Below are positions 433-14,831 of a stretch of 22,711 nucleotides of DNA, one piece after another. The notes beneath the pieces are model-generated. The model was not told the origin of the DNA, searched no databases, and saw only the letters and a list, made by a program, of their open reading frames with translations. The first letter of the stretch is position 1, and each line of letters starts with the position of its first letter. A program made the position numbers and the translations under genes. This DNA is from a virus: the IMG/VR virus record IMGVR_UViG_3300027972_000056, positions 1-22,711 of that record; one strand, written 5' to 3'.

Positions 433-3400
433 ATGGCAGTTGCATATCGCTCTGTTGCTTCAACTATACTTTCCACTAGAACTAACATCACGGTTACAAA
501 ACCTGCTGGCGTAGTAGACGATGATATTTTAATTGCATCTATCGCAATTGATACTGACACGGCAATTACTCCTCCTGCCGGATGGACAGAAATAACCGTA
601 GTGGACGAGTCAACAGTAGACCTTGATTTATATGTCTACTGGAAACGTGCCAGCAGTGAAGGTGCAAACTATACTTGGACACACTCTTCTGCATGGTCGG
701 CGGGGGCGATTGTCGCAGTGAGTGGTGCGATTACATCGGGTGACCCCCAAGATGCCACAGTTGGTATAGACAATAACGATGGGCTTACTTCTACCGTAAA
801 CATACCGAGTATCACCACTGCTACCGATGGCTCGTTAGTCATCGCAGTAACTTCTGAATATAATACGGCTATTACATCTTCCACTCCGTCAGGATGGGAC
901 GAAAGACTAGACACGGAAGGAATGCACGTTTGGACAAAAACCCAAACTACTAGTGGTGCAACTGGTGCAACCACAGCTACACTGTCGACTGCAAGTAATC
1001 ATGTTACAGCAGTTGTAGCAATAAAAGAAGGTGTTGCTACAACCGTAGAGCAAGAAGGTTTTCGTTTTGGAGTAGATGATGGAAGTGAATCTGCACATGG
1101 TTGGGAAGCTAGTCAAGATACGAACATCTCAACGGTTTCACCATCTACAAAGCTGATACGTTTTCTATTGAATTCTACAGGGGATTATGCTTCAACGGCA
1201 TTCAAATTAAAATATCAGAAGAACGGTGCTGGAGGGTATGCTACAGTTCCTCTAACGGCAACGAGTGGTGGTACAACCCCTCTTATTGAGGCGGCAGATT
1301 CTACCAGTTCTGGAGACAACGTTGGTAGTGCTTCATGGGCGGTTTCAACTCCTACGGCATCAACTGGAGACCTGTTGATATTCAACATTTCTTGGGACGA
1401 TAGCGTTACGGTTTCAAACGTAACTGCGCCAGCAGGTAAAAACAGTGAAACACTAACTGCAATCAACGCGACTCCTGCTGTAAGTAATGGCACTGAAGTA
1501 CGTTGTAAATCTTGGTACTGTATTACAACTGGAGCATGGACAGCAGGTACAATAACTTTTACTCCATCGGCTTCAGAGCAATGGACAGCGAAAGTCATTC
1601 GTGTTCCTGCTGGTGAGTTTGATGGCACTACACCTATTGGTGCAAGTGTTACCAGTGCTTCAGCGGGAGTAGCAGAAACAAACGTACAACACGGGGCTTT
1701 TACCGCAGGAGCAAGTGACGGTGGTGGTAAACTATGTGTGTGGACTGCTGTAGATGTAGACCCTCAAACGGTTGCGACTGGGTTTACTCAAGTAGCCAAT
1801 ACAGATGTGGGCGTACTCTCAGGTGGTTTCTTTCATCGCAACACGGTGGTAAGTAATAGTGAAAGCTTTACAGCTACAACCGTTTCAACCATTGCTGGCG
1901 ATTCTTGGTGTGCAGTAGCCTTTGTGGTTCGTGCGCCTGTTATAACAAATGATTTATATATCAGTACATCCACCAACATTACTGCTGGTGGTGAAGCAAC
2001 TACTGCAAGACTTACTGCTCCCAGTGGTAAGACAACATCCGATTTCGTTACTGGTCGAAGATGGGACGATGAAAACGGTACTGATTCTATAGATATAACT
2101 ACGGATGATTATACCGAAGTTGAATTCCCCATCACACTTAGAACGGGATTGACTGATACTACATATTTCGATTTTAGAATGTACAATGTAGATACGGCTA
2201 TTGATACTTATACCGTAACTCCTCGTTGGACTGTAGCATCTGTTGCCACAGCTACAGGTACATTAAATAAAACTCTTGGGGGTTTGACTGGAAGCGTTGC
2301 TGGAACGGTATTGGTTTCTGGCACTACATCTAAAACGTTAGGTTCTCTAACAAAAAGTATTACAGGAAGTGTTTTAAATAACGGTTCTTTGTCTAAAACA
2401 CTTGGAGCATTGACTTCGGTTTCTGCCGTAGATGTTATAGTGCAAGGAACATTGGATAAAACTCTAGGTTCTTCAACACTATCTTCTGGTGGAACTGTAG
2501 CCGACAACGTATCTACTGGAACTTTGAATAAGACTTTAGGTTCTTTAGTTTTAAGTTCTTCTACTAACAACATTGTTTCTGCAACCCTCAATAAAGCGTT
2601 GGGTTCTTTAACTGAAACGTTGGATGGAGACGTTTTAGTACAAGGTACTACGAGTAAAACTTTAGGGTCTCTAACTCTAACAAGTTCCGTAAAAGCTCAG
2701 GTATCAGGCACTTTAAATAAAACGCTAGGCTCTTTAACTCGGTCTATATCTGGAACAGTTTTAGTTAGCGGAACTACAAGTAAAACTCTCGGGGCTACAA
2801 CCTTAGTATCGGCAGGAGATGTCTTTGTTGCCGGAAGTCTCAATAAGACTCTCGGTAGCTTGAGTTTATCTTCTTCCGGAAGTGTTGCTATAGTTCTTTC
2901 AACGGGAACTTTAAATAAGACTTTAGGTGTGTTGTCTCTAGTTTCTTCCGGAGATACCATAGTCTCAGGGTCTACTGTAAAAACTTTAGGCTCTCTATCT
3001 GCATCTTCAAGTGGAGATGTGATAGTAACAGGTTCTACTAGTAAGACTTTGGGGTCTTTGACTCTCTCGTCTGTTGTAGACAATATAGTTTCTGGTTCTT
3101 TGAACAAGAGTCTTGGTTCTATTGCAAAAACAATTGATGGTGACGTATTAGTTGTAGGTACTTTAAATAAAACATTAGGTTCGTTATCTTTATCCAGTGC
3201 GGGTTCGATAGGCACAGTTGTAGTAGAAGGGTCTCTCAATAAAACTCTCGGAACGCTAACTTCCACGTCTAGCGGAAACCTTGTTGTACAAGCTACTTTA
3301 AATAGTAATTTGGGTTCTCTGTCGTCGTCGGCAGAAATTCTAATAACAAAAGCTATACCTCTGACACCAGATGGACTTATAACCACAGTATGGAACAACA

Positions 3401-4524
3401 TATTCACTTGGTATGGCACATCTTTGTCAACATGGTATCTTATACAATTTGCAGACGAAAACGAAATAGAAATATTTAGCCAATGGTATACCGTTTCTGA
3501 AACGGGTGGTGCTGGACAATTAAACTGTTTTGTTAGTCCTACTCAAACCCAGTCTCTTGTAAACGGAAACTATAAATGGAGACTGTTAGACTATCATAGT
3601 GACTACGGAAACTGGAGTGACTATAAAGCCTTCACGCTGAGTGTCATATCTCAAGGTACTCTCTCTGAAAATCTATCTCCATTAAGTGGTTCAAGCGCAG
3701 GAACAGTAGAGACTCACGGAACAACCAGTAAGACTCTTGGTTCGCTAAGTTCTTCTTCTTCTGGTACTGTGAGTGTATCAGGAAGTCTATCTAAAACACT
3801 AGGCTCATTATCTAAAACTATATCTGGTAAGGTTGATGTAAAGGGAACTACGAGCAAAACTCTAGGGTCTCTAACATTGTCCGCAACAGGTGGAGCTACT
3901 AGTCCGACAATAGGAACTTTAAACAAAACACTTGGAGCGTTGTCTGAAAACATTACAGGAACTGTTTCTATAACAGGTACTACTGTAAAGACTCTGGGTG
4001 CTATAAGTAAGAGTGTAACTGGTACAGTACTGGTAAAAGCTAGTGTTAGCAAAACACTATCTTCCATGACATCAGTATCCAGTGGTAAAGTTATTATCGG
4101 AGCAAATACTTCCGAAAATCTAGGTACGATGCTGTCTACTTCATCTGGTACAGTTCTAGTATTAGCAACCGCAGACGAAGCTCTTGATGGCATCATGGTA
4201 TCTAGTTCAGGAGAAGTTGTGGTTTCTGGTATCCTAAGTAAAACTTTAGGAGAAGCAACACTCGTGGCAAATGGCATAGTAAGCAACGCCAGAGAAGGTA
4301 TATTAAATGCCACTCTGGGAGCAATTGTATTTGACGCCACAGGAACAGTGTTTGATGCACAAAAGAGATACTACGATAGATTTATAACAACATCTCTGGA
4401 AAAAAGTACAGACATGGTAAACAAAAGTGAATTAGAACTTTTTGTCACAAAACAATTCGAAGATACAACCGTGGCAAGTTTTATAAAAAACAGAAACTTG
4501 ACCATAAAAAAAATACAAAATTAA
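433..4524 (+). CDS. Giant repeat-containing tail fibre / adhesin-like protein (1363 aa)
   Basis: Starts at ATG 433 behind GGGGAGGAGG. Residues 1-198 form a beta-rich domain ending AVVAIKEG. Residues about 203-275 (EGFRFGVDDGSESAHGW onward) resemble a domain common in phage structural proteins. Residues about 285-505 look like a second copy of the first domain's fold, ending in AVAFVVRAP. From residue 609 come 17 degenerate units of about 20-24 residues with core G(T/S)LNKTLGSL or GTTSKTLGSL. An aromatic-rich Ig/FN3-like insert follows (about residues 967-1072), then 11 more units and a charged C-terminus. There is no signal peptide or membrane span. The length, repeats and place beside other tail genes suggest an extended fibre or tail-surface protein that contacts the host. 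No chaperone or autocleavage domain is visible. An alternative is a capsid-surface fibre. Confidence 0.75.
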   Translation: MAVAYRSVASTILSTRTNITVTKPAGVVDDDILIASIAIDTDTAITPPAGWTEITVVDESTVDLDLYVYWKRASSEGANYTWTHSSAWSAGAIVAVSGAITSGDPQDATVGIDNNDGLTSTVNIPSITTATDGSLVIAVTSEYNTAITSSTPSGWDERLDTEGMHVWTKTQTTSGATGATTATLSTASNHVTAVVAIKEGVATTVEQEGFRFGVDDGSESAHGWEASQDTNISTVSPSTKLIRFLLNSTGDYASTAFKLKYQKNGAGGYATVPLTATSGGTTPLIEAADSTSSGDNVGSASWAVSTPTASTGDLLIFNISWDDSVTVSNVTAPAGKNSETLTAINATPAVSNGTEVRCKSWYCITTGAWTAGTITFTPSASEQWTAKVIRVPAGEFDGTTPIGASVTSASAGVAETNVQHGAFTAGASDGGGKLCVWTAVDVDPQTVATGFTQVANTDVGVLSGGFFHRNTVVSNSESFTATTVSTIAGDSWCAVAFVVRAPVITNDLYISTSTNITAGGEATTARLTAPSGKTTSDFVTGRRWDDENGTDSIDITTDDYTEVEFPITLRTGLTDTTYFDFRMYNVDTAIDTYTVTPRWTVASVATATGTLNKTLGGLTGSVAGTVLVSGTTSKTLGSLTKSITGSVLNNGSLSKTLGALTSVSAVDVIVQGTLDKTLGSSTLSSGGTVADNVSTGTLNKTLGSLVLSSSTNNIVSATLNKALGSLTETLDGDVLVQGTTSKTLGSLTLTSSVKAQVSGTLNKTLGSLTRSISGTVLVSGTTSKTLGATTLVSAGDVFVAGSLNKTLGSLSLSSSGSVAIVLSTGTLNKTLGVLSLVSSGDTIVSGSTVKTLGSLSASSSGDVIVTGSTSKTLGSLTLSSVVDNIVSGSLNKSLGSIAKTIDGDVLVVGTLNKTLGSLSLSSAGSIGTVVVEGSLNKTLGTLTSTSSGNLVVQATLNSNLGSLSSSAEILITKAIPLTPDGLITTVWNNIFTWYGTSLSTWYLIQFADENEIEIFSQWYTVSETGGAGQLNCFVSPTQTQSLVNGNYKWRLLDYHSDYGNWSDYKAFTLSVISQGTLSENLSPLSGSSAGTVETHGTTSKTLGSLSSSSSGTVSVSGSLSKTLGSLSKTISGKVDVKGTTSKTLGSLTLSATGGATSPTIGTLNKTLGALSENITGTVSITGTTVKTLGAISKSVTGTVLVKASVSKTLSSMTSVSSGKVIIGANTSENLGTMLSTSSGTVLVLATADEALDGIMVSSSGEVVVSGILSKTLGEATLVANGIVSNAREGILNATLGAIVFDATGTVFDAQKRYYDRFITTSLEKSTDMVNKSELELFVTKQFEDTTVASFIKNRNLTIKKIQN
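2257..3330 (+). repeat. Degenerate coding repeat array, block 1 (17 units)
   Basis: Seventeen consecutive protein repeats inside the large adhesin gene. Each is a turn-like G(T/S)(L/T)(N/S)KTLG(S/A)L core followed by a short Ser/Thr/Gly-rich strand and a Val/Ile-rich strand. The L-N-K and T-S-K versions are intermixed. At DNA level the units use different synonymous codons (for example ttaaataaaact, ctcaataagact, ttgaataagact), so the conservation is in protein and not in nucleotide sequence. This points to an old array under protein-level selection, not a fresh tandem duplication. Confidence 0.9.
3655..4350 (+). repeat. Degenerate coding repeat array, block 2 (11 units)
   Basis: Eleven further units of the same family, resuming after an Ig/FN3-like insert at about 3331-3648. 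The first (GTLSENLSPL) and several of the last units (ANTSENLGTM, ATADEALDGI, GILNATLGAI) are more divergent than the middle ones, as expected for array edges. Unit length stays near 20-24 residues. Confidence 0.85.
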
Positions 4525-4912: not shown

Positions 4913-4985
4913 ATTTGAACATCTTCGTTATCGGTTGAGAAGATGTTATGTCGTTATCGTTTGAATAAATTTATAATGTTCAAAT
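4913..4985 (+). promoter_or_regulatory. Two mutually exclusive RNA stems between structural genes
   Basis: Two perfect inverted repeats share bases. AACATCTTC (4918-4926) can pair with GAAGATGTT (4939-4947). ATTTGAACAT (4913-4922) can pair with ATGTTCAAAT (4976-4985). Bases 4918-4922 belong to both, so only one stem can form at a time. A near-copy pair, TCGTTATCGGTTGA at 4925-4938 and TCGTTATCGTTTGA at 4951-4964, lies inside. The next gene's ribosome site (AAGGAG) follows about 20 bases downstream. No U-tract follows either stem, so simple termination is not supported. Confidence 0.5.
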
Positions 4986-5018
4986 AAAATAACAACCGAC
5001 AAACAAGGAGAATATACA

Positions 5019-5504
5019 ATGACTTTAACAACTTTACAAAAAACACAACTAAATAATTCTAACAAGGCTATGCAAAGTGCTCAAATCGGAACACTCTTGG
5101 GAGATATGGAAGCTGGCGCAGTAGGAGCTATTCGTAAGATAGAAGAGACGGTCTTGTTCTCTCAATTTACTGATGGTGGTGCGGCTAGTGGCACATACAC
5201 TCTAACTGCCGGAACAATTCCCGTTGGAGCAACAGTGCTGTCCTCAGCTATCAAGGCGATTACAGGATTTACTGGAAACGTGTCCGCTACAATCATCATT
5301 GGCGATGGTAGCGATACTGACAGATACAACACAGGTACACCTTCCGTATTCACAACTGCCGCTGGTGGCATTAGTGCGGGCGCTGTAAGTGGAGTAGCTT
5401 ATCACACCGCTGAAAAAAGCGTAGTTCTTACTGTCGCTGGTTCTTCAGACTTCACAGCCATTAGCGCTGGTTCTGTTACCGTAGCTGTTTATTACTTATT
5501 GTAA
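5019..5504 (+). CDS. Phage structural protein, beta-rich (161 aa)
   Basis: Starts at ATG 5019 behind ACAAGGAGAATATACA. A short helical N-terminus (TTLQKTQLNNSNKAMQSAQI) leads into Gly/Ala/Thr/Val-rich beta sequence containing GDGSDTDRYNTGTPSVF and SAGAVSGVAYHTAEKSV. It ends in VAVYYLL. This pattern recurs in phage genomes as a small structural, decoration or tail-surface protein. The gene is richer in G+C than its neighbours, like the major capsid gene, and is followed by a strong hairpin; both are typical of an abundant product. I cannot tell whether it is a head decoration or a tail-fibre component. Its position after the adhesin favours the tail. Confidence 0.65.
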   Translation: MTLTTLQKTQLNNSNKAMQSAQIGTLLGDMEAGAVGAIRKIEETVLFSQFTDGGAASGTYTLTAGTIPVGATVLSSAIKAITGFTGNVSATIIIGDGSDTDRYNTGTPSVFTTAAGGISAGAVSGVAYHTAEKSVVLTVAGSSDFTAISAGSVTVAVYYLL

Positions 5505-7860: not shown

Positions 7861-7933
7861 GCCCTCGTAGCTCAACGGTAGAGCGCCCGCTTTGTAAGCG
7901 GGATGTTATGAGTTCGAATCTCATCGCGGGGCT
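7861..7933 (+). tRNA. tRNA-Thr (anticodon UGU) with a bulged acceptor stem
   Basis: All arms are visible: D stem GCTC/GAGC, anticodon stem CCCGC/GCGGG around loop TTTGTAA (anticodon TGT, Thr), variable loop ATGTT, and T stem ATGAG/CTCAT around TTCGAAT. The 5' acceptor strand is GCCCTCG (7861-7867). The 3' strand is CGCGGGGC (7925-7932), eight bases instead of seven. Skipping C7927 gives seven pairs (one G-U); forcing a seven-base strand gives two mismatches. The last base, T7933, would be the discriminator. CCA is not encoded. The gene would read ACA codons, common in an AT-rich phage. The bulge may reduce function or be a sequencing error. Confidence 0.88.
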
Positions 7934-8989: not shown

Positions 8990-9511
8990 ATGAAAAAAAC
9001 AACGACGAATAAACCAGAACAAGGAAGACGTTCTAGTAGTCAAAATGCGTTTCTTCAGCCTAAAAACATGGTAAAAGAAAAAACACTTTCGGGCGAAAGA
9101 CGCAATAGAATGATTTCTTGGATTACTTTTTACAGGTTGAATGTACACAGATTTATTCAACATTATTTTGGAATAAAACTTTTTCCATATCAAATATTGT
9201 GGATATGGGCAATGGGAGTAAAGGATTCGTTTTTTACTGTCGCATCCAGAAGTGTTGCAAAATCTTGGCTGATTGGAGTTTATGCTGTTGCGAGATGTGT
9301 TCTATATCCCAACAGTAGTGTTATCATTGTATCTTCAACCATGGCACAGGCGGCTGTCATTATCAATGAAAAAATTAAGGGCTTATACAATGATTATCCA
9401 AATGTTCAGCGTGAAATATCAAATATAACAAGTGGTTTGAATAAACACGAAGTATTATTTCACAATGGTAGTACAATAAAAGTAGCGGCAAGCAGAGATA
9501 GCGCGAGAGGT
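8990..9511 (+). CDS. terL: Terminase large subunit, exon 1 (ATPase N-terminal part)
   Basis: Codons 1-174 of the DNA-packaging motor. The Walker A-like loop is ASRSVAKSW (residues 85-93), followed by the strand SSVIIVSSTM and a conserved NGSTIKVAASRDSARG before the break. The ORF continues to TAG 9560-9562 with non-terminase residues (KLQISKNKNFTLLNPI); I read that extension as intron. Joining 9511 to 10653 restores SARG-KRATFIIVEESR in frame, with the split exactly between codons 174 and 175. The full spliced protein would be 601 residues, a normal length for TerL. Start ATG 8990 lies two bases after the upstream stop, with only a weak GGTGAG before it. Confidence 0.93.
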
Positions 9512-9576
9512 AAATTGCAGATTAGCAAAAATAAAAATTTTACATTATTAAATCCAATTTAGGAGGAAACTGTAAA

Positions 9577-10419
9577 ATGAATAAAGCTGGAGAATGGTCT
9601 CAAGAAGATATAAATTATGCAATAAACAATAGAAATAAAATGTCTTATATAGAAATTGGAAAACTTCTAGGACGAACAAGAAATGCGGTAATGATAAAAT
9701 TAAATAAAATGGGATATAAGTTAGAACCAATAAATACGTTTGAATCTAGTTTCTTTAGAAATATAGACACAGAGGCAAAAGCATATTGGCTTGGATTTAT
9801 TTATGCTGACGGATATGTTTCATATACTAATCATAAAAAACAAACTTCTTACACCGTCGGAATTGAATTGAACAGCGTAGATTATCCCCACTTAGAATTA
9901 TTTAATTATTGTATTTCTGGAAATTTAAAGATAAAAAATAGGATGAAAAAGTTTTCCAAGCTATCCACCCAAGAGAGCGAAATGTCTTCCATCAGAGTTT
10001 ATTCTAAAGAAATGGTGGAAGATTTAATATCACATGGGATTGTTTATAAAAAATCCAACGTGATAGAATTTCCAAAAATCAGAAAAGATTTAATTTCACA
10101 TTTTATTCGCGGATTTTTTGATGGGGATGGTTCTATTTCTATAGAAAAAGAAAAACAACAACTTAGATGTAATTTTACATGTGGTTCAAAGGTTTTTCTC
10201 GACAGATTAAAATCAATATTTGACAAGTTAGGAATGAGTATATATATAAGCAAAGAAAAAAATCACTTTAGGCTTGGTATTAACGGAAAAAAGTCTAATA
10301 GAATATTTCTTGAATATATATATAATGATTCCACAATTTTTTTAGAAAGAAAACATAATTTTTATTTTGCTAATGCCTACTTATTAGACTACATCTATGA
10401 TGGATGGAACAACAAGTAG
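9577..10419 (+). CDS. LAGLIDADG homing endonuclease inside the terL intron (280 aa)
   Basis: Predicted site-specific DNA endonuclease that cuts intron-lacking terL alleles and so spreads the intron. Two LAGLIDADG-type motifs are present: YWLGFIYADGY (residues 70-80, acidic D78) and HFIRGFFDGDGS (residues 175-186, D184). It is therefore a monomer with both active-site helices. The N-terminal 50 residues (WSQEDINYAINNRNKMSYIEIGKLLGRT) look like a helix-turn-helix or SANT-like domain, an addition to the usual core that may aid DNA binding. The start is ATG 9577 with AGGAGGA nine bases upstream. The gene is very AT-rich compared with the terminase exons, as is common for homing genes. Stop TAG 10417-10419 is followed one base later by the intron's P1 guide. 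Confidence 0.93.
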   Translation: MNKAGEWSQEDINYAINNRNKMSYIEIGKLLGRTRNAVMIKLNKMGYKLEPINTFESSFFRNIDTEAKAYWLGFIYADGYVSYTNHKKQTSYTVGIELNSVDYPHLELFNYCISGNLKIKNRMKKFSKLSTQESEMSSIRVYSKEMVEDLISHGIVYKKSNVIEFPKIRKDLISHFIRGFFDGDGSISIEKEKQQLRCNFTCGSKVFLDRLKSIFDKLGMSIYISKEKNHFRLGINGKKSNRIFLEYIYNDSTIFLERKHNFYFANAYLLDYIYDGWNNK

Positions 10420-10420
10420 T

Positions 10421-10652
10421 GCCTCATTATGTGGTAACACATATATATAAATTGCGGAAAAAATCTGGAAGGCTGAGACGCCAATCAGAGTGGAAGGCTA
10501 ATATAAATTAGTCACACGCAGAGCATAGGTCTTGAAATAATAGACCCAAGAGTCCGCAACGCCTCTAAGAAGAGGATGAAAAGATATGCCGAACTGATAA
10601 GAAACAAATTATCAGAATGCAAAGATAAAAAACTTTGCAGATAACAAAATTG
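10421..10652 (+). ncRNA. Group I intron ribozyme core (subgroup IA-like)
   Basis: The core helices can be traced by hand. P2: 10428-10433 with 10438-10443, GTAA tetraloop. P3: TTGCGG 10452-10457 with CCGCAA 10554-10559. P4: TCTG 10464-10467 with CAGA 10486-10489. P5: GGC 10471-10473 with GCC 10480-10482. P6: GTG 10490-10492 with CAC 10515-10517. P6a: 10496-10502 with 10507-10513. P7: GCATA 10523-10527 with TATGC 10585-10589. P7.1: GGTCT 10528-10532 with AGACC 10542-10546. P8: CCTCT 10562-10566 with AGAGG 10571-10575. P9: 10594-10600 with 10609-10615. P9.1: 10618-10624 with 10633-10639. A P7.1 helix between P7 and P3 suggests a class IA intron. Pairings are hand-drawn; P4-P6 are the least certain. 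Confidence 0.88.
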
Positions 10653-11936
10653 AAACGCGCAACGTTTATCATCGTAGAAGAAAGCAGATTGGTTGACAAA
10701 GCTATTCTTGATGATGTAATTCGTCCGTTCAGCTATGTTAGACCAGTCCCCTACAATAAAGACCCTAAATATCAACATATTCCACTTGAAGAAGCAAAAG
10801 AGATGCACATCACGTCTGCACACTATACTAGCGGATGGTGGTATAAAGAAACCTTGATTGCAATCAAGAATATGTTATTAGGAAAAAACGTGGGATTTCT
10901 AGCTACCGATTATCTTACTGCTGTTTTTCATAGAATCAAGACACCAGCACAAATAGAGAAAGACCAAGAAGTTATGAACGAGTTAAGTTTTCAGTTGGAA
11001 TACTTGAACATACCCATTGGTGAATCTGGTGATTCATATTTTAAATTAAAAATGCTACAAAAAAACAGGGTGCTGAAAAAAGCTTTTTACCCATGTAAAA
11101 AAGAAGACTATGTAAACAAGAAAAACATATCAACGTTGCCAAAAACAGAAAATGAAATGAGAATTTTATCAATTGATATGGCTACTCGCGCCGGAAAGTC
11201 AAACGACTTAACGATTATATCCTGTGTGAGATTGATACCGACGCATAAAGGATATGAGAGAGAAGTTGTATACATGGAGAGTTTTAGTGGCAAAAATACT
11301 TTGCTACAAGCACTTCGTATAAAGCAACTCTGGTTTGAATTTGAAGCAGACAATCTCGTATTGGACATATTAAATGCTGGCATAAGTTTATATGATACGT
11401 TGGGTGCTATAACAAAGGATGACGAAAAAGGAATTGAATATCCTGCGATGACCGTCATGCCCCACAAATCATTGGATGATAAATTGTACTTAGAATTACG
11501 TGAAAGAACGACTGGCGTAAATGCTCTGGAAATTATATATCCAATCGTGGGCACATCGGCTCTTAACAGCAGGGTGGCTGTAGAGTTTAGAGATAAACTT
11601 CAAAAGAAAATGATTTCATTCTTGGTGGATGAAAATATAGCCGATGAATTCCTATCAAAAAACATGAAGGGATATCTGAGTGCAGAAGACAGCATCACAA
11701 AAGCAGATGCTTTAGCTCCATATGTTCAAACAAGTCTGCTGGTTTCAGAGTGTATCAATTTGTCTATGACGTTGGTATCTGGAAACATCAAGCTAACAGA
11801 ACCCGATGGAGCTAGAAAAGACAGATATTCAAGTGCAAGTTATGCAAATTATTTTGCGTCTTTGTTAGACAATGATTTGCTCAAGGAAAGTGAAGACTCC
11901 TTGAGTGACTTCTTGGATGTCACCATGTTCATGTAA
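10653..11936 (+). CDS. terL: Terminase large subunit, exon 2 (Walker B and nuclease)
   Basis: Codons 175-601 after splicing. It opens with KRATFIIVEESR: a Walker B strand (about residues 179-184) ending in EE where many terminases have DE. The nuclease domain starts near residue 345. Candidate metal-binding acids are D349 in RILSIDMATRAG, D412 in NLVLDILNAG and D526 in ITKADALAPY, in the order expected of an RNase H-like terminase nuclease. The frame can be extended upstream to an ATG at 10635, but those six residues (MQITKL) are intron and lack a ribosome site. Stop is at 11936; the portal follows after 18 bases with AAAGGAGG between. The enzyme cuts concatemeric DNA and pumps it through the portal. 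Confidence 0.93.
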   Translation, partial: KRATFIIVEESRLVDKAILDDVIRPFSYVRPVPYNKDPKYQHIPLEEAKEMHITSAHYTSGWWYKETLIAIKNMLLGKNVGFLATDYLTAVFHRIKTPAQIEKDQEVMNELSFQLEYLNIPIGESGDSYFKLKMLQKNRVLKKAFYPCKKEDYVNKKNISTLPKTENEMRILSIDMATRAGKSNDLTIISCVRLIPTHKGYEREVVYMESFSGKNTLLQALRIKQLWFEFEADNLVLDILNAGISLYDTLGAITKDDEKGIEYPAMTVMPHKSLDDKLYLELRERTTGVNALEIIYPIVGTSALNSRVAVEFRDKLQKKMISFLVDENIADEFLSKNMKGYLSAEDSITKADALAPYVQTSLLVSECINLSMTLVSGNIKLTEPDGARKDRYSSASYANYFASLLDNDLLKESEDSLSDFLDVTMFM

Positions 11937-13601: not shown

Positions 13602-14294
13602 ATGTCGGGTGTGTATGTAATAATCAACAGAACAAATGGAAAAATGTATGTTGGTCAAACCCAAAGAAAATTTTCTCACAGATGGAATCAACACAAAGCT
13701 TCCCTCAATTTGGGAAAACACCACAACAAGCATTTACAGAATGCTTGGAATAAATATGGAGAACCATCTTTTGAATTTGTGGCTGTTGAAACTTGTCCTA
13801 GAAATAAACTACAAGAAATGGAACAATTTTATATAGATAAGTACGGAACGAAGAATCCCGTATTTGGATATAATAAAGTAGATTCAAAAGAAGTAAAAAA
13901 ATCCTCCATCAAAAAATTATCAATAAGAAACACGGGAAGTGGAAATCCAATGTTCGGAAGAAAACATTCTGAGAAAACAAAAAAGAAAATTGGTGAAAAA
14001 AGCAGTATAAAAAAACACAAAAAAGAAACAAAAAAAAGAATTTCAGAAGCCTTGAAGAAACGCTCTTTTAATACTGGCGGAATGGTCGTAAAAGGGTCTC
14101 TCTCAAATTTTGTGGGGGTTAGCTGGAATTCAAGAGAAAATAAATGGAAGGTTGGTTTTCATATGAATCATAAAGACTATCATATCGGATATTCAAAAGA
14201 TGAAAGAACTGCGGCAATCTTATATAATGAATATATAATAAAAAATAAAATCAATCGACCTTTGAACAATATAGAGAAGGGTGGAGATGAATAA
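13602..14294 (+). CDS. Free-standing GIY-YIG homing endonuclease with NUMOD3 and AP2-like domains
   Basis: A 230-residue nuclease. The catalytic domain (residues 1-92) has GVYVI (3-7), MYVGQT (15-20), HRWNQH (R27) and LQEMEQFYI (E74), the GIY-YIG set. Two NUMOD3-like DNA-contact motifs follow: GNPMFGRKHSEKTKKKIGEK (114-133) and HKKETKKRISEALKK (139-153). The C-terminus (about 168-212) begins FVGVSWNSRENKWKV and ends ERTAAILYNEY, the signature of a small AP2-type DNA-binding domain. It is not within an intron: portal ends intact three bases before it. Its stop TAA (14292-14294) shares a base with an ATG. Such genes cleave related phages lacking them, favouring inheritance of the surrounding segment. 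The gene is very AT- and Lys-rich, a sign of recent transfer. Confidence 0.93.
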   Translation: MSGVYVIINRTNGKMYVGQTQRKFSHRWNQHKASLNLGKHHNKHLQNAWNKYGEPSFEFVAVETCPRNKLQEMEQFYIDKYGTKNPVFGYNKVDSKEVKKSSIKKLSIRNTGSGNPMFGRKHSEKTKKKIGEKSSIKKHKKETKKRISEALKKRSFNTGGMVVKGSLSNFVGVSWNSRENKWKVGFHMNHKDYHIGYSKDERTAAILYNEYIIKNKINRPLNNIEKGGDE

Positions 14295-14327: not shown

Positions 14328-14831
14328 ATGACCACGAACTTGATTAGTGAAACTTTGATTGAAGCTTTACAAAACCAAATGGTTCACGAAATAAAAAACG
14401 CGCACATTTATTTGTTCGTTTCCGGATATTTGAATTCCAAAGGAATGAATAAGATTGCGTCTTTTTTCTCAAATCAATACAACGAAGAACTTGAACATTT
14501 CAAATTGATTTTTGATTTTTTAGTTGACATGGATGTGGTTCCTAGTATTATTGAAATCGATGAAACCAATGCTTCTACGTTATCACTACAAGATAACATA
14601 ATTTCAATTGCTTCTAAGTTTATAGATAGAGAAACAATAACGACGAGCAATTTGGGTGAGATATTGGGCTTATGTATTGACGAATCTAATTTTATCGCAG
14701 AACAATTTATACGCGGAATGATTGGTCGTCAACAGGCTGAATACGCGGAGGCAACAGAGTTTATGGATAAAGCCAATCTCTGCGGAAGCAATTGGATGAA
14801 TGTTTTGATTTGGAATAATTCTTTCGAGTAA
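14328..14831 (+). CDS. Ferritin (FtnA-like iron-storage protein) in the head gene cluster
   Basis: A 167-residue four-helix protein. ATG 14328 follows a strong AAAGGAGG. Compared from memory with E. coli FtnA, the ferroxidase residues are all present at constant spacing: E21 (FtnA E17), Y28 (Y24), E54 (E50), H57 (H53), E102 (E94), Q135 (Q127) and E138 (E130). Of the third-site residues, E53 fits but R134 and A137 replace acids. The 51-residue stretch from F98 aligns to FtnA without gaps. Helix E is replaced by an odd tail, CGSNWMNVLIWNNSFE. The protein should oxidise Fe(II) and may form a 24-subunit cage. It sits between the GIY-YIG gene and the protease, where no known head function calls for it. 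Encapsidated cargo, host iron control or oxidative defence are possible; none is shown. Confidence 0.87.
   Translation: MTTNLISETLIEALQNQMVHEIKNAHIYLFVSGYLNSKGMNKIASFFSNQYNEELEHFKLIFDFLVDMDVVPSIIEIDETNASTLSLQDNIISIASKFIDRETITTSNLGEILGLCIDESNFIAEQFIRGMIGRQQAEYAEATEFMDKANLCGSNWMNVLIWNNSFE

Follow-up and report, generated by a model that had tools for sequence, protein, structure and literature searches.

Endonuclease genes in group I introns

The gene for I-PpoI of Physarum, a homing endonuclease of the His-Cys box type, lies in an extension of P1 in a eukaryotic rDNA intron. A homing endonuclease gene (HEG) is similarly lodged in the S1506 intron of the nuclear rDNA of Porphyra, between the 5′ splice site and the guide sequence, that is, inside P1, and the loops of P1, P2, P6, P8 and P9 are all listed as HEG sites in group I introns (PMC2585584). 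In phage T4, the td, nrdB and nrdD introns (I-TevI, I-TevII and I-TevIII) are mobile introns of the IA subgroup, where a hairpin hides the ribosome-binding site (RBS) of the endonuclease gene and the 3′ end of the reading frame has crept into the ribozyme; removal of the hairpin over the I-TevI RBS lowered td splicing (PMC2988022, PMC3073962). In introns of the T4 type an internal late promoter gives transcripts on which the RBS is free. The locus considered here, in the terminase gene terL of a virus, recalls both situations.

An interrupted terminase gene

The window, which is the whole stretch of DNA analysed, is a virus fragment of 22,711 bases from IMG/VR, with terL sitting within a structural gene cluster; its top cultured relatives are the Thomasclavelia phages TR-TP1/TP2 and SPbeta-like phages. 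Sequence comparison confirms that terL is interrupted by a group IA intron, made of P1 to P9.1 together with P7.1, the main parts being as follows:

8990-9511, plus strand: terL exon 1, 174 codons, the ATPase part up to ...RDSARG (open reading frame list, PHROG terminase matches)
9507-9511, plus strand: GAGGT, the strand that exon 1 contributes to P1, its last base being the U of the 5′ splice site
9512-10652, plus strand: group IA intron with a LAGLIDADG HEG in its P1 loop (covariance model R1, exon comparison, covariation)
9577-10419, plus strand: LAGLIDADG homing endonuclease gene, 280 aa, with motifs AYWLGFIYADGY and FIRGFFDGDGS
10653-11936, plus strand: terL exon 2, starting KRATFIIVEE..., the rest of the ATPase and the nuclease part

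The intron is 1141 nt long and has TTG as its 3′ end, G10652 being the terminal G that is typical of group I introns. The joined exons make 601 codons, in frame, with the junction ...DSARG/KRATFIIVEE... in the conserved Walker-B region of terL. Intronless relatives, 62-80% identical to exon 2 of the window, read uninterrupted across this point (L012, SARGSRATFIIVEE; L013, SARGRRATFIIVEE; L015, SARGHRATFIIVEE; pattern SARG/xRATFIIVEE), and compared with them the join neither gains nor loses a residue. They agree with the preliminary description of this DNA, made from its letters only, both on the splice coordinates (exon 1 ending at 9511, intron at 9512-10652, exon 2 from 10653) and on the restored SARG-KRATFIIVEE.

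The HEG product matches Pfam PF14528 (E 1.5e-16), with PF00961 also over the cut-off, PHROG 4645 (E 4e-50) and, among PDB profiles, those of I-HjeMI and I-AniI. As expected of its class, it has two LAGLIDADG motifs with catalytic acidic residues, D78 and D184 according to the alignment. The ribozyme and the endonuclease of this intron are presumably both active, and the presence of intron-plus and intron-minus alleles at one site suggests that the endonuclease would drive homing.

Several other features of the window may be recorded here. A ferritin-like gene (14328-14831; Pfam PF00210, E 9e-16) adjoins the portal gene, a neighbour that is also annotated in Thomasclavelia phage TR-TP1, and a second homing endonuclease gene, of the GIY-YIG type with NUMOD3, lies between portal and ferritin-like gene (13602-14294), where TR-TP1 has none. 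The structural cluster contains a tRNA-Thr (TGT, 7861-7932); in Mammaliicoccus phage phi127, too, tRNAs are found a few genes upstream of terL. At 433-4524, a protein of 1363 aa with many diverged LNKTLGSLTLSSSG repeats and no Pfam match is probably a tail or fibre protein.

A ribozyme core of the IA subgroup

The preliminary description held that P2 to P9.1 could all be traced, and each of these helices (P2, P3, P4, P5, P6, P6a, P7 with its bulged base, P7.1, P8, P9 and P9.1) was located in the window, among them:

10428-10443, plus strand: P2 hairpin TATGTG/CACATA with a GTAA loop, read from the sequence; counterpart hairpins in L016, L017, L020, L047 and L162
10452-10559, plus strand: P3, 10452-10457 with 10554-10559, enclosing P4, P5, P6, P6a, the P7 5′ strand and P7.1
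10521-10527, plus strand: P7 5′ strand, G-(A bulge)-GCATA, pairing with TATGCC at 10585-10590; guanosine-binding site
10528-10546, plus strand: P7.1 hairpin GGTCT/AGACC, 100% of cells paired in 20 sequences, with four covarying pairs
10562-10575, plus strand: P8 hairpin CCTCT/AGAGG, covarying in the core alignment
10594-10638, plus strand: P9 (10594-10600/10609-10615) and P9.1 (10619-10624/10633-10638), the same hairpins having different sequences in homologs

Related cores, which are compact and align unambiguously, come from 120 stretches of viral contigs picked out by the P7 3′ motif AAAAGATATGCYGARCT. In an alignment of 20 core sequences covering P3, P4, P5, P6, P6a, P7, P7.1 and P8, 93.2% of the cells pair, a proportion that falls to 33-41% once the 3′ partners are slid. 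Two-sided changes affect 26 of the 37 core pairs, all eight helices covary, the P7 pseudoknot included, and none of 500 shuffles reached any of five measures. P7 crosses P3, and beside the bulged base its outer pair alternates between A-U and G-C across the 20 sequences.

A covariance model, R1, was built from 18 of these sequences, the window and its closest homolog, L016, being left out. It recovered the window core at 10445-10595 with 147.3 bits (E 2.1e-34), and the same search gave no match in the intronless loci L012, L013 and L015. The general Rfam model RF00028, searched at the level of the window, the region and the genome, gave no match at the terL intron, and a single weak place below the cut-off (4914-5176), which was disregarded. 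A family-specific model is therefore needed, and the miss of the general model, insensitive to this intron family, does not outweigh the match of the specific one. The conserved P3-P8 core, with a bulged guanosine-binding helix P7, is that of a group I intron, and the element between P7 5′ and P3 3′ (P7.1) places it in the IA subgroup. The group I identity first proposed for this region, along with a covariance search as a means of checking it, is thus borne out by an independent model and by covariation in eight core helices.

The guide sequence behind the endonuclease gene

The guide sequence was located by comparison with HEG-less introns rather than by a search for complementarity. Two loci, L017 and L020, have introns at the same terL codon that contain no endonuclease gene, and there the splice site is followed by 10-11 nt, GCCTC (L017) or GCCCA (L020), P2 and P3, everything within about 45 nt. 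The window keeps the order guide, P2, P3, shifted to 909 nt past the splice site and behind the HEG; a single T separates the HEG stop codon (TAG, 10417-10419) from the guide:

10421-10425, plus strand: GCCTC, internal guide sequence, the 3′ strand of P1 (homologous position in HEG-less L017 and L020; P1 covariation)

In the HEG-less introns the guide precedes P2 at a distance of 10-11 nt from the splice site, and this identifies the GCCTC of the window as its guide; the LAGLIDADG gene consequently lies in the P1 loop, which measures 909 nt. In the helix GAGGU/GCCUC the U of the 5′ splice site pairs with a G of the guide, as is characteristic of group I introns. P1 covaries over 19 distinct exon/guide pairs from this and other insertion sites (guide swapping, p = 5e-6; the sites outside terL were picked by eye, which makes that part less independent), including GAGGT/GCCTC, GGGGT/GCCCC (L047), GAAGT/GCTTC (L151), CACGGT/GCCGTG (L069), GGCGGT/GCCGC and GGTGGT/GCCACC. 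In L150, L151 and L152 the bases immediately 5′ of the guide form a predicted P10 of 5-6 bp, which confirms the position of the guide; the P10 of the window amounts to 1 bp, which is not significant and too weak as support. P1 itself has only 5 bp in the window, where GCCTC occurs 12 times against about 20 expected and is not significant by itself; its significance is to be drawn from homology and from the covariation of P1. Both agree with the arrangement originally proposed, where P1 pairs GAGGT with a GCCTC 909 nt away and encloses the whole HEG.

In L016, the closest same-site intron with a HEG, P1 has an A.C mismatch, and the second motif of the endonuclease (gene at 2324-3163) reads FDGNG where the others have FDGDG, with loss of the expected catalytic acid; on these two grounds this intron may be decaying. 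In L017 (HEG-less intron at 1493-1860), the P7.1 region, from P7 5′ to P3 3′, is longer by about 100 bases, which are a possible leftover of an insertion.

The same evidence bears on two other ways of understanding the locus. Phage genes split through invasion by a HEG are known, and a free-standing LAGLIDADG gene might have divided terL into two separately translated halves, leaving a decayed core and no splicing, all the more as TTG at 10635 could serve as a start for exon 2. Yet no Shine-Dalgarno sequence is evident upstream of 10653, and joining the exons neither adds nor removes anything compared with the intronless genes; this very improbable account was rejected because the core helices, which covary, the P7 bulge and the terminal G are intact, and the exon junction is frame-perfect. 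Slimmer still is the chance that P1 is local, its splice site and guide unseparated, with the HEG in the loop of P2 or another peripheral element. HEGs in P2 loops do exist (PMC2585584), and P2 would be a conceivable location for a gene 5′ of the core; however, 9512-9576 contains no stretch complementary to GAGGT, and this placement was rejected because guide, P2 and P3 all follow the HEG, in the order seen in HEG-less introns, while the P1 covariation and P10 both use the guide behind it. We retain a presumably spliced intron with its endonuclease gene in the P1 loop.

A recurrent arrangement in phage introns

Judging by the loci collected, a HEG in the P1 loop is a recurrent form among related phage introns, not a singular one. 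Twelve distinct terL introns with a HEG share the site (the window, L016, L034, L047, L099, L153, L162, L150, L151, L152, L119 and L160), exon 2 continuing into Walker-B DE or EE in each. Besides the 11 others at this site, about 30 further introns show the layout, those of crAss-like and Mammaliicoccus phages included; annotated examples are Mammaliicoccus phage phi127 (terL, at the Walker A site) and crAss-like phage cr6_1 (AAA ATPase). In the fetched loci, a LAGLIDADG gene lies directly 5′ of an IA core in 51 of 216 HEG placements (46 from viral and 5 from bacterial assemblies, some of them duplicates), and the same screen placed 7 HEGs in a P8 loop. Where recruitment relied on the core sequence alone, about 18 introns carry a LAGLIDADG gene 5′ of the core, which makes this position as frequent as P8-loop insertions. 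The rarity of a P1-loop reading frame implied by the preliminary description does not survive these roughly 50 fetched loci, nor the P1-loop HEGs documented in rDNA introns, even though a literature search limited to open-licence papers found no description of one in a phage. At L020 (MT835481.1, 2974-5126), one terL carries two introns: the first lacks a HEG and occupies the site of the window, the other interrupts the nuclease part and has a reading frame in its P8 loop.

A hairpin over the start of the endonuclease gene

The leader of the HEG folds at -10.1 kcal/mol (z -2.6) into an 8-bp hairpin that encloses a strong AGGAGG and extends into the start codon:

9537-9544, plus strand: ATTTTACA, 5′ arm of the hairpin that would sequester the HEG RBS (fold z = -2.6; covaries across homologs)
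9561-9566, plus strand: AGGAGG, Shine-Dalgarno sequence of the HEG, in the loop region (from sequence)
9571-9578, plus strand: TGTAAAAT, 3′ arm, which takes in the A and the T of the HEG start codon ATG (fold and covariation)

Counterpart hairpins made of different letters are found in L016, L047, L099, L153, L162, L119, L160 and L152, and weaker ones in L034 and L150. When the 5′ zone of the hairpin was paired with the start zone of its own or of a swapped intron, the own combination scored higher (permutation p = 5e-5, n = 10), and comparison with shuffles gave a combined Fisher p of 3e-4; these p values are optimistic, as the zones were set after inspection of the first members and the sequence is AT-rich. 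In this AT-rich region, the hairpins of L034, L047, L162, L150 and L151, taken singly, are no better than shuffles.

The Shine-Dalgarno sequence and the start codon would thereby be sequestered in the T4 manner, and this putative covarying hairpin, which is new in the present analysis, resembles those of the T4 introns. It supports the view that translation of the HEG is incompatible with splicing. The simplest reading would be that such translation harms splicing and is hence restrained, which points to a hairpin whose role may be to hold back translation of the HEG and let splicing proceed, rather than to ribosomes setting the level of terminase.

Presumed competition of translation with splicing

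Measured from the first base of the guide, the HEG stops of all 12 same-site introns range from 1 nt ahead of it to 40 nt beyond it; the guide lies within the HEG frame or is cut by its end in 10 of them, and abuts the frame or lies inside it in every one. Given the size of the ribosome footprint, a ribosome finishing the HEG would therefore cover the guide.

The frame of terL itself, continued into the unspliced intron, ends near the start of the HEG:

9560-9562, plus strand: TAG stop that the terL frame meets after 16 intron codons; it overlaps the Shine-Dalgarno sequence of the HEG

Comparable read-through is found in four other introns: the terL frame ends at ATGA in L016, overlaps the HEG start in L047 and L152 and, on the minus strand of L034 (also in L123), joins terL exon 1, intron leader and LAGLIDADG gene into a single open frame of about 480 codons that runs over the guide and P2. 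Seven of the 12 same-site introns stop the terL frame within 0-9 codons, an early stop being the usual arrangement in group I introns (PMC3073962), and for this reason coupling from terL to the HEG was dropped as a general rule; it would at most be limited to one subgroup.

The identity of the intron, its splice sites, P1, the position of the HEG and the covariation of the hairpin were all established from sequence; beyond them, we infer that HEG translation and splicing are mutually exclusive, and that the coupling operates. It is likely, in our estimation, that we are dealing with a mobile IA intron with its HEG in the P1 loop and under the restraint of a hairpin, in which translation and splicing exclude each other. 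GAGGU at the end of exon 1 would pair with the guide GCCUC (10421-10425) and the intron would splice itself out; a ribosome translating the HEG to its end would cover the guide, directly behind the stop, so that on one RNA molecule the two processes could not both take place. The hairpin over the Shine-Dalgarno sequence and the start codon would keep ribosomes off most transcripts, and splicing would proceed. In the window, a terL ribosome going past the unspliced junction would meet its stop codon within the hairpin, on the Shine-Dalgarno sequence, and could unfold the hairpin. The endonuclease would then come mainly from those RNAs that fail to splice in time.

Other views of the control may be entertained. 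The intron might be purely selfish and the placement of its HEG neutral, with hairpin and guide overlap having no effect on splicing or on the level of terminase. This is possible but the less probable course of events: the Porphyra intron self-splices in vitro in every one of its P1-loop size variants (PMC2585584), and T4 viability showed no endonuclease-mediated change when the control of I-TevI was deleted (PMC2988022), whereas the covariation of the hairpin implies selection on it, and loss of the hairpin in T4 td brings about a splicing defect (PMC2988022, PMC3073962). The preliminary description proposed that ribosome traffic could control splicing and so the terminase level; hairpin and terL read-through would then make up a regulatory switch. 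The guide would lie beneath the terminating HEG ribosome, and the terL frame does enter the hairpin in the window, L016, L047 and L152, while L034 has terL and HEG in one frame; against this stand the seven introns of 12 that halt terL ribosomes almost at once, and we look upon the proposal as doubtful. In its full form, the HEG frame, the hidden start and the guide would constitute the switch: terL ribosomes outrunning splicing would open the hairpin, HEG ribosomes would block the guide, and the RNA would be committed to endonuclease over terminase, a scheme that we find rather unlikely. Translational control as such is plausible; after the T4 td example, it would hold back translation of the HEG in favour of splicing.

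Comparison with known systems

Endonuclease genes in P1 loops, documented in eukaryotic rDNA introns, are thus common and recurrent in phage IA introns, at a conserved terminase site and in other essential genes. With the guide under or inside the HEG frame, translation and splicing would compete directly, and the question of how translation of an intron reading frame bears on splicing becomes testable, in a simple system whose natural variants have a hidden start, an early stop, terL and HEG fused in frame, or no HEG. The layout may also explain a finding reported in PMC11878797, namely that general screens pick up no ribozyme signature to one side of certain phage endonuclease loops.

Several described introns share part of these features. 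In Lactobacillus phage JCL1032, where terL is annotated as spliced (a joined CDS), the intron core matches R1, and the intron has no HEG inside. In crAss-like phage cr6_1 (ATPase) and Mammaliicoccus phage phi127 (terL), a LAGLIDADG gene stands 5′ of an R1-matching core, at other insertion sites (Walker A), and the reading frame of cr6_1 continues into P7. The terL group I intron of Bacillus phage SIOphi splices in vitro and in vivo, and the terL HEGs of the Bastillevirinae are of the HNH/VSR type, not LAGLIDADG (PMC11878797). The T4 td intron differs in having a GIY-YIG reading frame in its P6 loop, the overlap being with P6a/P7 in T4 and with the guide and P2 in the family of the window. Porphyra S1506, finally, is an intron of eukaryotic rDNA with a His-Cys box gene on the opposite strand; compared with such rDNA introns, the window has an IA intron in a phage protein gene, a LAGLIDADG gene on the sense strand and a guide that abuts or overlaps the end of the reading frame. 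The layout is in this sense a variant of the P1-loop kind already known from the rDNA introns of eukaryotes.
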